64,000 nt of DNA from Sideroxydans sp. CL21 (GTDB taxonomy: Bacteria; Pseudomonadota; Gammaproteobacteria; Burkholderiales; Gallionellaceae): positions 3,174,501 to 3,238,500 of the forward strand of contig NZ_LR699166.1 of NCBI RefSeq assembly GCF_902459525.1, written 5' to 3'. Under the pieces are notes generated by a model. That model worked only from the letters and a program-made list of their open reading frames with translations, was not told the DNA's origin and ran no database searches. Position numbers and translations under genes: made by a program. Position 1 is the first letter of the stretch. Every line of letters starts with the position of its first letter. Of this stretch, positions 11,378 to 15,064 are shown piece by piece.

Positions 11378-11803
11378 TTAGGCGCCGAGGATGCCTTTTC
11401 CTGCAGCAGGAGCGGATTTCTTCGCTACGGCTTTCTTGGCAGGTTTTTTCGCTGCTGCTTTTTTCGCTGCCGGTTTCTTGGCGGCTACTTTTTTAGCGGC
11501 TGGCTTCTTTGCTGCCACTTTTTTCGCTGCCGGTTTCTTGGCGGCTACTTTCTTGGCGGCTGGCTTCTTTGCTGCCACTTTTTTCGCTGCCGGTTTCTTG
11601 GCGGCTACTTTTTTAGCGGCTGGCTTCTTTGCTGCCACTTTTTTCGCTGCCGGTTTCTTGGCGGCTACTTTCTTGGCGGCTGGCTTCTTTGCTGCGGCTT
11701 TCTTGGCGGCCGGTTTTTTAGCTGCTGCGACTTTTTTAACAGCTGGCTTCTTTGCGGCAGCCTTCTTGGTAGTGGTGCTTTTTGCTTTGGTTGTTGCAGC
11801 CAT
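11378..11803 (-). CDS. Histone H1-like Lys/Ala-rich repeat DNA-binding protein (AlgP/HctB-like)
   Basis: The 141-residue protein is almost wholly Ala, Lys, Pro and Val in repeated [10 protein letters not shown] units. This is the pattern of bacterial histone H1-like proteins such as AlgP and HctB, which bind DNA nonspecifically. A short unique N-terminus ([16 protein letters not shown]) and C-terminus ([12 protein letters not shown]) flank the repeats. The ATG at 11803 was chosen over one six bases upstream because AAGGA is then correctly spaced. The repeats are also nearly perfect at DNA level, so the length may vary between strains. Confidence 0.85.
11461..11700 (-). repeat. 60-bp tandem repeats inside the H1-like gene
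   Basis: Four consecutive 60-bp units (20 codons each) begin at 11461, 11521, 11581 and 11641. They differ at only a few positions; two variants alternate, TTTTTAGC and TTCTTGGC. The first and third units are essentially identical, as are the second and fourth, which implies a 120-bp higher-order unit. Shorter 30-bp sub-repeats are visible within them. Confidence 0.9.
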
Positions 11804-11974
11804 TTTCATTCCTTATAAAAATTGATGGACTAACCAGTTAAAATTTTCGTGCACCAACTGCACTCCCGATGCGCCTTTCTACAGCTTGAAATCTCCCAAC
11901 ACGCACGGTGGCTGCATTCTATGCGCGATTAAAAAAAATGCGCAACACTTTTATGCATATTTCGCGAAATAATT

Positions 11975-13222
11975 TCACGCGATGATTTTCTCTGCAGCGT
12001 AGAGCTGGCTTACTGTTTCGCGTTCCCGAACCAGGTGCACGACCGAGCCGTCAACCATCACTTCGGCTGCCCGAGGACGGGAATTGTAGTTGGAACTCAT
12101 GCTCATTCCGTATGCGCCAGCCGACATCACAGCAAGCGCATCTCCTTTATCCACGGCCATCTCGCGGGCATGACCAAAAAAATCCCCGGTCTCGCAGATC
12201 GGCCCGACCACGTCGTATTGCTGTGTCTCACCCTCTCTTTTTCGAACCGGCAGGATGGCGTGCCAGGCATCGTAAAGTGCCGGACGCATGAGGTCGTTCA
12301 TCGCAGCATCGACGATCGCGAAGTTCTTTTCTTCTCCATGCTTGAGGTACTCGATGCGCGTAAGCAGTACCCCGGCATTGCCGACCAGCACCCGGCCAGG
12401 TTCGACGATGATCTTCTCGGAACGCCCTTGTAGCGCGCCCAGCAGGGCTTTTGCATACTCGGCGATAGAGGGAGGAGTCTCGTCGTCGTAGCGGATACCG
12501 AGACCGCCTCCCAGGTCGAGATGCTCCAAAACAATGCCGGAGGCAGCCAGCAGATCCACCAGTGCCAGCACTTTTTCCGCCGCCGCGATGAACGGGCTGG
12601 TCTCGGTGAGTTGCGAACCGATGTGGCAATCCATGCCGGTTACTCGCAAATGCGGCATGGCAGCAGCCTTGCGATATAGTGCCAGCGCTTCGGTGTAGGC
12701 CACACCGAACTTGTTCTGCTTGAGCCCGGTCGAGATGTAGGGATGGGTCTTGGCATCCACATCGGGGTTCACGCGCAAACTGATCGGCGCGACCTTGCCC
12801 ATGCTGCCCGCAACCATATTCAGGCTATCCAGCTCTGACGAAGATTCAACATTGAAACAAAGTATTCCGGCCTCAAGTGCCTGCCGCATCTCGGCTTCGC
12901 TCTTGCCTACGCCGGAGAAAACCACTTTGTTCGCGGTACCTCCCGCCGCCAGCACACGCTGCAATTCTCCGCCGGAAACGATATCGAAGCCGGCGCCCAG
13001 ACGCGCAAACAGATTGAGGATGGCAAGGTTGGAATTGGCCTTCACCGCATAGCAAATGAGATGCTCGCGGCTCTTGAACGCTTTGGCGAACTGGCGATAG
13101 CCGTCGGTCAGGGCGGCCCGCGAATAGACGTAGCACGGTGTTCCGAAACGCCGGGCGATGTCTTCCAGTGGCACGTTTTCGGCGAACAGGCGGTCTTGCT
13201 GATAGCTAAAATATTCGTTCAT
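11975..13222 (-). CDS. lysA: Diaminopimelate decarboxylase
   Basis: LysA decarboxylates meso-diaminopimelate to lysine using pyridoxal phosphate. The 415-residue product has a PLP-binding lysine (Lys61) in CYAVKANSN, the HIGSQL segment, the phosphate-binding GGGLGIRY, the EPGRVLVG loop and the C-terminal GAYGMSMSSNYNSRPR. The ATG at 13222 gives MNEYFSY; an ATG at 13228 would overlap the lptM stop as ATGA and is equally possible. The lptM-lysA order is standard in proteobacteria. Confidence 0.97.
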   Translation of the reverse strand: MNEYFSYQQDRLFAENVPLEDIARRFGTPCYVYSRAALTDGYRQFAKAFKSREHLICYAVKANSNLAILNLFARLGAGFDIVSGGELQRVLAAGGTANKVVFSGVGKSEAEMRQALEAGILCFNVESSSELDSLNMVAGSMGKVAPISLRVNPDVDAKTHPYISTGLKQNKFGVAYTEALALYRKAAAMPHLRVTGMDCHIGSQLTETSPFIAAAEKVLALVDLLAASGIVLEHLDLGGGLGIRYDDETPPSIAEYAKALLGALQGRSEKIIVEPGRVLVGNAGVLLTRIEYLKHGEEKNFAIVDAAMNDLMRPALYDAWHAILPVRKREGETQQYDVVGPICETGDFFGHAREMAVDKGDALAVMSAGAYGMSMSSNYNSRPRAAEVMVDGSVVHLVRERETVSQLYAAEKIIA

Positions 13223-13224
13223 GA

Positions 13225-13410
13225 TCATTTTTTGGTTTCGGGATTTTCGGCAGAGGGTTGCGCCGGAACAACTTGAGAAGCAGCCTGTGGAGCAGTTTGG
13301 GGGGCGATTTTCGGCGGCGGCAAGAACAGCGGAGCTTTGCGCCCGCAGCCTTGCAGCATGAGTACCAACAGCAACATAATGCCAAGGATGCGCATGACTT
13401 TATCTTTCAT
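13225..13410 (-). CDS. lptM: LptM-like small lipoprotein
   Basis: This 61-residue lipoprotein has a short signal peptide and lipobox LMLQGC, followed by GRKAPLFLPPP and a Pro/Ala/Gln-rich tail. The GxKGPLxxP-like motif right after the lipid-modified cysteine, and the position directly before lysA, match LptM (formerly YifL), which assists LptD/LptE maturation in enterics. The start could be five codons later (MRILGIML). The stop overlaps the possible upstream lysA start. Confidence 0.85.
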   Translation of the reverse strand: MKDKVMRILGIMLLLVLMLQGCGRKAPLFLPPPKIAPQTAPQAASQVVPAQPSAENPETKK

Positions 13411-13440: not shown

Positions 13441-14739
13441 ATGATGGAAAGTCCAGGCAACGAACCGGACAGCGCGCTGTTCGCTCGTATCCGGAAGTTA
13501 GTAAACGAACGCGGGGTGGACATTCGCCAGAATCTGAACGGCAATGCACTGCACCTGGATTTCGCCGATGGCCAGCGCATCCTCGTCAACATCGACGCGC
13601 AAACGAATAACGTATGGCTGGCGGCACGTTCCGGTGGCATTGAATTCATCCATTGCGACAGCACCTGGCGCGCTCATGACCAGAGCGAACTGTTCGCCAG
13701 ACTGCGCGAGCTCATTGAACAGGCTATTGTCAGCAATCCGATCAATGCTCGCGCACCTGCCCAACAGACCCTACGCCCTGCTCCCGTCTATCTTTATGAA
13801 GCCAGGAAGAATCACAGCCTGCGCAATGTGCTTATCATCCTGCTGGCAGTTACTGCCGGCTTCTGGGCAGCACAAAGATTCAACCGCCCGCAAGTTTCGG
13901 CCGATACCGGATCAAGCAAGCAAACACAGTCCCGGAGCAAATTGGACTATCCGTGCGAAAGCAGCTTCCCTGCCAATGGCAGCATCGCCCTGTTTGCCGA
14001 AGGTGGCCTGCGCGCCGACAATCCGAACGATCCCGAGATCACCCTAAGAAACGATCATGCCCATCCCGCGCTTCTGATCTTCTCTGCACCGAATACCGCC
14101 ATTCCCCTCTTGTCGGTGCTGGTTCATGCAGGGCAGAGTACCTCACTGCACCTGCCACCCGGACTGTACGACATGATGTTCAGCGTCGGCACCACATGGT
14201 GCAATCCGCATAGCGGTTTCTCGGAGGGGCGCTTGCTTAAGTTCGACAAACCCCTGGCTGTGCAGACGGACAAACCGGTACAGCTCGCCATACAGTCGTC
14301 CGGAACAGGGATGGAGGATTTTCAGTTGTTCGTCAAAACAACCAGTCCCGAGGTGATCGCGCCAGCGCCGACTTTCAACGGCGACGGCAGCATGGAGGTA
14401 CAACGTCGGGCGAACGGGCATTTCTACCTGCCCGGCACCATAGACGCGATACCGGTCACCTTCATGGTGGATACGGGCGCTTCGGTCACTTCCATCTCCG
14501 GCGAGCTCGCGCGCCGGGCCGGTATCCGCAACTGCAAGAAAGTGCAGTTCCAGACTGCAAACGGTGCAGCGAACGGATGTATCGCACTTGTGCCTCACAT
14601 GACCGTCGGTAACTTTACAATGGAGAACATCACCGTGGCCGTGATGAACAACCTGGAAACCAACCTGCTCGGCGCCAACGTGCTGCGCAATTTTCAAATC
14701 AGCCAGAACGACAGCAGCATGCTGATCGGACGGCGTTAA
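13441..14739 (+). CDS. Frataxin-like domain - membrane anchor - retropepsin-like aspartic protease fusion
   Basis: This 432-residue protein has an unusual architecture. Residues about 10-95 align with CyaY/frataxin: LDFADGQRILVN, NNVWLAARSGG and SELFARLRELI match the corresponding strands and helix of the CyaY encoded next door. A single membrane helix follows (about 127-146), then a beta-rich linker domain (about 165-300). The C-terminal clan AA single-domain aspartic protease (about 325-432) has the active-site VDTGAS (Asp344) and the late motif NLLGANVLRNF. The frataxin part should face the cytosol and the protease the periplasm, if the helix inserts N-in. The start is the ATG at 13441 (a second ATG follows at once), preceded by GGCGGGA. 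The gap to cyaY is 13 bases, so both are probably co-transcribed. Function unknown. Confidence 0.85.
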   Translation: MMESPGNEPDSALFARIRKLVNERGVDIRQNLNGNALHLDFADGQRILVNIDAQTNNVWLAARSGGIEFIHCDSTWRAHDQSELFARLRELIEQAIVSNPINARAPAQQTLRPAPVYLYEARKNHSLRNVLIILLAVTAGFWAAQRFNRPQVSADTGSSKQTQSRSKLDYPCESSFPANGSIALFAEGGLRADNPNDPEITLRNDHAHPALLIFSAPNTAIPLLSVLVHAGQSTSLHLPPGLYDMMFSVGTTWCNPHSGFSEGRLLKFDKPLAVQTDKPVQLAIQSSGTGMEDFQLFVKTTSPEVIAPAPTFNGDGSMEVQRRANGHFYLPGTIDAIPVTFMVDTGASVTSISGELARRAGIRNCKKVQFQTANGAANGCIALVPHMTVGNFTMENITVAVMNNLETNLLGANVLRNFQISQNDSSMLIGRR

Positions 14740-14752
14740 CCAAGGACTACAC

Positions 14753-15064
14753 ATGACTGAGAGTGAATTCAACGAACTGGCCGATGCCGTATTCCAGCGC
14801 ATCGAACTGGCAATAGACGATGCAGATGCGGATATCGATTACGACAGCAACGGCACGGTACTGGAAATGGAATTTGCGGACGGCAGCAAGCTTATCGTCA
14901 ACCGCCATGTGCCGAACAGGGAGATCTGGCTGGCCGCAAAATCCGGCGGATTCCATTACGCACTGGAAAACGAGCGCTGGTTCAGCCAGCGCGACGGCAG
15001 CGAACTTTTCGCCAAATTAAGCGAACTGGTAAAACTGGGAACAGGGCAACATCTGGATTTCTAG
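14753..15064 (+). CDS. cyaY: Iron-sulfur cluster assembly protein CyaY (bacterial frataxin)
   Basis: CyaY is a cytosolic iron-binding regulator of the IscS/IscU cluster assembly machinery. The 103-residue product has the expected length. It shows an acidic first helix and edge (IDDADADIDYD), the core strands LEMEFADGSKLIVN and REIWLAAKSGG, and a final helix ELFAKLSELV. CyaY divergent from lysA is a known proteobacterial arrangement; here the frataxin-protease fusion gene is inserted between them. Confidence 0.95.
   Translation: MTESEFNELADAVFQRIELAIDDADADIDYDSNGTVLEMEFADGSKLIVNRHVPNREIWLAAKSGGFHYALENERWFSQRDGSELFAKLSELVKLGTGQHLDF

Follow-up and report, generated by a model that had tools for sequence, protein, structure and literature searches.

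A single gene in the window (the whole 64,000-nt stretch of DNA that was analysed) joins a frataxin-like domain, a membrane helix, a beta-rich domain and a retropepsin-like aspartic protease in one chain of 432 residues. The fused gene is real, old and kept, and is no artefact. It is a conserved new domain architecture, both component families of which are known. Frataxins are small single-domain proteins of Fe–S assembly, and no description of a frataxin–protease architecture was found in open-access papers searched by title and the start of the abstract. The fused domain probably serves for docking, attached to a periplasmic protease. The fuller reading, in which the frataxin fold serves docking or oligomerisation on a periplasmic retropepsin and no longer donates iron or regulates IscS in the classic manner, is given a probability of roughly 40%.

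The fused gene occupies positions 13441..14739 of the forward strand, as defined by the open reading frame, profile matches and predicted fold. It starts with an ATG at 13441 and reads through 432 codons. The stand-alone frataxin gene cyaY (14753..15064, forward strand, 103 aa; PF01491 at 95.5 bits, TIGR03421 at 116.3 bits) begins 13 nt beyond the stop of the fusion, and the interval 13441–15064 of the original finding takes in these two genes. Both the 432-residue frame and the adjoining cyaY, as described in the first-pass annotation, are present in the sequence. On the reverse strand, 30 nt from the start of the fusion, lies a divergent lptM-like lipoprotein gene (13225..13410; PF13627 at 25.1 bits, just below the cut-off of 27.3). 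The gene at 11975..13228, also on the reverse strand (PF02784 at 239.3 bits), was identified by its Pfam pair and neighbourhood as what we take to be lysA, encoding diaminopimelate decarboxylase, the conserved neighbour of cyaY. The reverse strand at 11378–11809 also encodes a 143-residue lysine/alanine-rich repeat protein with a histone H1-like HC2 match of 58.7 bits.

Frataxin family searches gave matches in 104 of 158 genomes of the family, 247 of 399 of the order, 52 of 369 of the class and 104 of 398 of the phylum, these sets overlapping. The full fusion is present in 26 of the 34 genomes of the window's genus. In all 26 of these copies, cyaY follows directly, at a gap of 8–15 nt in 24 of them and of 105 nt in one, and with a 14 nt overlap in one. 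In genomes G001, G019 and G024, the contig ends within the fusion, of which the last 29–68 residues are seen immediately ahead of cyaY. Two genomes of the genus (G012 and G002) have the order lysA-lptM-cyaY with no fusion between, and three that are 63–73% complete (G008, G010 and G029) gave no frataxin match, which is uninformative at this completeness.

The fusion was also found in 3 of 19 genomes of a second Gallionellaceae genus (G161, G169 and G163). In G161 and G169, it adjoins a HAD-hydrolase-type gene, away from any cyaY locus, and these genomes (85% and 100% complete, respectively) have no frataxin match besides the fusion. The G163 locus runs from lysA and lptM through the fusion and a DUF4139 gene to cyaY. 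This DUF4139 gene (L145:2502-3926, 51.8 bits), in the deepest-branching genome with a fusion, may record an older gene order. No fusion was found outside the two genera among the order matches listed or in the class and phylum samples; a weak-scoring one could be hidden in the order sample, where the matches considered are those listed. Long-frame matches outside the family were considered as further frataxin fusions and rejected as looking like plain CyaY: in the 13 listed matches with open frames of at least 263 aa, CyaY lies at the C-terminal end in every case, and lysA is found nearby on the opposite strand in 12, with none found beside G804.

Selection was estimated in 16 hand-chosen pairs, in 15 of which the linker and helix were computable. 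The dN/dS values were 0.07–0.31 for the frataxin domain, 0.05–0.32 for the beta-rich domain, 0.03–0.35 for the protease and 0.21–0.69 for the linker and helix; CyaY gave 0.03–0.16 in the same 16 chosen pairs. Every domain is below 1 in the chosen pairs, including the sisters G004 and G023 with their degenerate active sites, and the G161/G169 pair shows 0.136 in the frataxin domain and 0.23–0.29 in the other parts. The frame is uninterrupted in 29 genomes, which argues against a sequencing error or two separate genes. The chance that a frame error, or two genes read as one, produced the fusion is negligible in view of these intact frames and of the values for the linker and helix; nothing was found in its favour.

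The frataxin-like domain comprises residues 15–96 (13483..13728, forward strand), with a predicted fold over residues 9–98. In the profile search, residues 15–96 match Frataxin_Cyay (PF01491) at 33.1 bits against a cut-off of 21.3. Residues 1–100 searched alone, the check suggested earlier, reach 37.5 bits, and the cut-off is exceeded by all 29 fusions in the family genomes. In alignment A2, which holds 27 proteins (25 fusions and two unfused homologues from Nitrosomonas), 25 match Frataxin_Cyay at E ≤ 0.1, a count tabulated without the names of the matching members. The CyaY equivalog TIGR03421 gives 46.4 bits for the window's fused domain, under its cut-off of 53.25, compared with 116.3 bits for the adjoining CyaY; the two sequences share 40% identity over residues 1–93.

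The structure was predicted with AlphaFold2 on the 27 aligned sequences. The whole model has a mean pLDDT of 74.2 and a pTM of 0.36, at which the arrangement of the domains is unreliable; the frataxin part is well modelled, with block-mean pLDDT values of 86–93 over residues 11–100. Its predicted elements are a helix at residues 9–24, six strands up to residue 77 and a helix at 84–98, corresponding to the alpha–beta sheet–alpha fold of frataxins. Foldseek matched it to CyaY structures 4lp1, 4hs5, 4jpd and 1ew4 at target TM 0.64–0.77, the value for 4lp1 being 0.77 with an rmsd of 1.2. The CyaY-like N-terminus claimed in the first-pass annotation is thus upheld by the family match and by the predicted fold.

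The surface of the fused domain differs from that of CyaY. In E. coli CyaY, NMR mapping places the contacts with IscS and iron on alpha1/beta1, and those with IscU include Trp61–Ala63, Gly68 and His70 (PMC5346568). The mean net charge of the alpha1–beta1 edge is −1.2 in the 29 fusions (range −5 to +1), compared with −8.5 in 18 CyaY proteins of the genus, −5.7 in 25 from other genera of the family and −7.8 in five outgroup proteins. The acidic alpha1/beta1 edge that marks frataxins is thus strongly reduced in the fusions, in agreement with the earlier remark that it is mostly lost in the fused copy. Trp59 and Ala61 are kept in 29 of 29 fusions, Asn50 and Gly65 in 28 and Gly66 in 27; the E. coli counterpart of Trp59 is a mapped IscU contact in the same source. 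The position of His68 is Glu in 29/29 fusions, and Arg51 is mostly replaced among them. Across the 26 fusions of the genus, with identities to the window's protein down to about 51%, 17 columns of the frataxin domain (residues 13–76) are invariant, Trp59 among them. Given this reduction, the classic edge is unlikely to handle iron, although some of the sheet face may have retained the ability to bind.

Hence, the "iron-sulfur assembly sensing" that had been ascribed to the protein finds no support: the iron/IscS surface is strongly reduced in all 29 fusions, the protease site is degenerate in three genomes, and in two genomes nothing but the fusion matches frataxin. Iron sensing by the fused domain is likewise not supported. 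It is unlikely that the domain is a working second frataxin, delivering iron or tuning Fe–S assembly at the inner membrane and replacing CyaY where the latter is lost. Such a role would suit G161 and G169, where the fused copy is the sole frataxin match, Trp59 is kept and dN/dS between the two domains is 0.136. However, the acidic edge is strongly reduced across the 29 fusions, the Gly66 position is Ser in these two genomes, and the absence of CyaY seems to be tolerated, since no frataxin match occurs in 54 of 158 family genomes, or in 29 of the 94 good ones. Losses of CyaY may thus have been frequent in Gallionellaceae.

The charge change relative to CyaY, together with the position next to cyaY in every full copy of the genus, would also fit a membrane tether for CyaY, in which the less acidic fused edge pairs with the acidic edge of the protein encoded by the adjoining gene. 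This arrangement is quite improbable, since the fused edge is near neutral and not basic, and the fusion persists in G161 and G169, where no other frataxin was matched.

A single membrane helix, the number given in the first-pass annotation, is placed at residues 126–147 (13816..13881, forward strand) by both AlphaFold2 and hydropathy. Its Arg128 is kept in 27 of 27 rows of A2, the two unfused Nitrosomonas homologues included. A second helix near residues 210–228, a hydrophobic segment with a helix-like score in most fusions, was considered and rejected: strands are predicted there, and none of the seven unfused homologues has such a peak, one of them, G051, having a peak elsewhere. The beta-rich domain (residues 171–309; 13951..14367, forward strand) was delimited by cysteines, hydropathy and a separate model, and ends at about residue 300 in the whole-protein model. 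Modelled alone, it reaches a pLDDT of 84.4 and a pTM of 0.78. No Pfam family matches it in more than two of the 27 A2 proteins, and no solved structure was found by sequence at E < 0.021. A Foldseek search of the PDB gave nothing at E 0.001, the best match being weak (E = 2.3e-03); the weak matches are the PepT extracellular domain, AlgF and transthyretin.

Four cysteines, Cys172 and Cys254 of the beta-rich domain and Cys365 and Cys380 of the protease, are invariant among the 36 homologues compared (29 fused and seven unfused), and all of them are C-terminal to the helix. In addition, the G407 homologue shows, by eye, a signal-peptide-like N-terminus directly ahead of its beta-domain/protease part. 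From these two features, we strongly infer that the frataxin domain is cytosolic and that the beta-rich domain and protease are periplasmic, consistent with the extracytoplasmic protease envisaged earlier. The G407 protein (L168:1288-2181), a beta-domain retropepsin with such a start, would be a useful soluble model for activity work.

The retropepsin-like aspartic protease domain covers residues 318–428 (14392..14724, forward strand), as indicated by profile matches, fold and cysteines. TIGR02281 matches residues 318–428 at 74.1 bits (cut-off 57.95) and PF13975 matches residues 331–417 at 70.1 bits (cut-off 28.2). Foldseek aligned the domain with the Rickettsia retropepsin 5c9f at target TM 0.81 and rmsd 1.4. 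Both the comparison with clan AA families and the predicted fold thus bear out the C-terminal retropepsin recognised at first pass. The active-site triplet Asp344-Thr-Gly, located by sequence and alignment at 14470..14478 (forward strand), lies in the motif VDTGAS in the window, and the catalytic DTG is present in 26 of the 29 fusions. The site is degenerate in G028 (VDPDTP) and in G004 and G023 (LDTDSP), which form one clade (100/93). Judging by the motif, these three proteases are presumably inactive. Given the broken DTG and the dN/dS values for G004/G023 of 0.095 in the frataxin domain and 0.166 in the protease, one lineage has probably lost cutting yet keeps the protein.

Retropepsins of the TIGR02281 type were also met elsewhere. 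Stretches with identical match values (40% identity to the window's protein, residues 295–429) occur in several Betaproteobacteria (L060-L066, L071) and on plasmids, e.g., CP000540.1 (L183); 14 plasmid records gave some match, and 13 of these are typed conjugative. One such stretch is near a Tn3-family transposase gene. This retropepsin is apparently mobile.

In the frataxin tree, the domains of all 29 fusions are united in a single clade (100/99). In the protease tree, the membrane–protease parts of the fusions lie on one side of a 100/98 branch separating them from seven unfused homologues. G163 branches first among the fusions in both trees. The G161 and G169 copies group beside those of G026 and G031 (100/98 in the frataxin tree, rows L019 and L018; 87/70 in the protease tree), which hints at transfer of the fusion between the two genera. 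All 25 cyaY loci read from other Gallionellaceae genera have lysA facing cyaY and no intervening fusion, and in 19 of them the lptM query matched between the two genes; in the window's genus, the fusion thus stands in the place of cyaY, with cyaY behind it. A tandem cyaY copy, the first of which was joined to a retropepsin gene, explains the locus.

The frataxin tree is based on 103 alignment columns and includes 49 CyaY rows (18 from the genus, 25 from other genera, one from G163 and five from the outgroup), not all of those found. In the best tree, the fusions group with CyaY proteins from the other genera of Gallionellaceae and not with the neighbour CyaY. The AU test rejects none of the alternatives, with p values of 0.247 for grouping with CyaY of the genus, 0.229 for a position outside all CyaY of the family and 0.406 for grouping with the whole family. 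With 103 columns and p values of 0.23–0.41, the parent CyaY cannot be fixed, and the tree neither demonstrates nor rules out descent of the fused domain from the adjoining CyaY. Thus, the tandem duplication followed by fusion proposed at first pass fits the gene order of the locus, whereas parentage from the adjoining CyaY is not established.

Unfused membrane proteases of the fusion type, with the helix, the four-cysteine beta-rich domain and a TIGR02281 protease, occur in named Nitrosomonas records (L056, L057), and further homologues were found in one genus of the order (G051, G336, G424, G480), in G407 and on an Azonexus plasmid, the last near an integrase gene. The order search at E 1e-24 matched nine of 399 genomes, with four fusions and five unfused proteins, the latter in two other genera. 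A mobile source of the retropepsin part is possible. These proteins lend themselves to a different explanation of the fused domain, tentative and still nearly as likely as docking, namely that a retropepsin gene came to lie downstream of a second copy of cyaY and through the fusion acquired a promoter, a start site and a soluble N-terminus. The frataxin domain would then be an accidental cytosolic cap, conserved merely because it has to fold, and the work of the protein would be wholly periplasmic. The short, unrelated N-termini of the unfused homologues, including the plasmid-borne one, agree with this, as do the reduced iron/IscS surface, the changed IscU face and the faster evolution of the frataxin domain relative to CyaY in the 16 chosen pairs. 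It is countered by the 17 domain columns that stay invariant, Trp59 included, despite identities of about 51%, and by a dN/dS range like that of the beta-rich domain.

Comparison with known systems sets the fusion apart from each of them. It resembles CyaY/frataxin (PF01491; TIGR03421) in predicted fold, core residues, a Pfam score above the cut-off and identity to the adjoining CyaY, and differs in its score under the equivalog cut-off, the reduced acidic edge, the replacement of His68 by Glu, the membrane anchor and 330 extra C-terminal residues. It shares the domain score, the DTG motif and the 5c9f fold with clan AA retropepsins (TIGR02281/PF13975), and differs from them in the putative cytosolic frataxin domain, the beta-rich domain between helix and protease and the three members with a broken DTG. 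The unfused homologues have the beta-rich domain and protease in common with it (27–37% identity), and the four cysteines in the seven compared, the Azonexus protein being outside that comparison. They are without the frataxin domain, and no cyaY was seen in the stretches read around them.

APRc/RC1339 of Rickettsia is a membrane-anchored dimeric retropepsin whose N-terminus is predicted inside and C-terminus outside; like the fusion, it is anchored in the membrane, but with three predicted helices ahead of the protease, and the part of the source consulted mentions no frataxin domain (PMC4140852). The RloA retropepsins of Pseudomonas are exported, dimeric and related to RimB, and cleave polyglutamate in vitro; they differ from the fusion in having a signal peptide, and no fusion is mentioned in the part of the report consulted (PMC12239564).

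Docking is the simplest reading that uses all parts of the protein. The frataxin domain, having given up the classic tasks of donating iron and regulating IscS, would mediate docking or oligomerisation on the cytosolic side, and would keep part of the beta-sheet face that touches IscU in E. coli CyaY (Trp59, Ala61, Gly65-Gly66 and also Asn50). The extent to which the periplasmic retropepsin can pair and cut or bind its substrate would then depend on how the frataxin domain tethers or gathers the membrane chains; by analogy with the studied kin APRc and RloA, the retropepsin would work as a dimer. In one sub-clade, a non-catalytic binding role alone may be left, and the degenerate sites of that clade suggest that catalysis is not always needed. 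This reading is favoured by the family and fold scores, the 29 kept copies in one clade, the cysteines placed after the helix, the reduction of the acidic edge while Trp59, Ala61, Asn50, Gly65 and Gly66 are kept, dN/dS below 1 in all domains and the short gap to cyaY in 24 of 26 genus copies. It is weakened by the changes at His68 and Arg51, through which the IscU-facing surface is also altered, by the locus without a fusion in two genomes of the same genus, by the clade with degenerate protease sites and by the uncertain domain arrangement of the model. The position beside cyaY favours a link to Fe–S assembly; G161 and G169, with the fusion off the cyaY locus and no other frataxin match, disfavour an obligate one and indicate that CyaY is not an obligate partner.

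Gallionellaceae are best known for iron oxidation. A bolder and rather unlikely extension of the docking module is a transmembrane device, in which the cytosolic frataxin fold would read the state of Fe–S assembly, not iron, through its IscU-like face, and the pairing of chains would switch the periplasmic retropepsin on or off, linking cytosolic Fe–S status to the processing of periplasmic or outer-membrane proteins. Carried by a transmembrane protease, the frataxin domain would exemplify a fold that nature has recruited for another task. With the iron/IscS edge erased and the other face partly kept, the fusions amount to a naturally occurring experiment for assigning roles to the individual frataxin surfaces, and they show how a membrane retropepsin gained a cytosolic domain.
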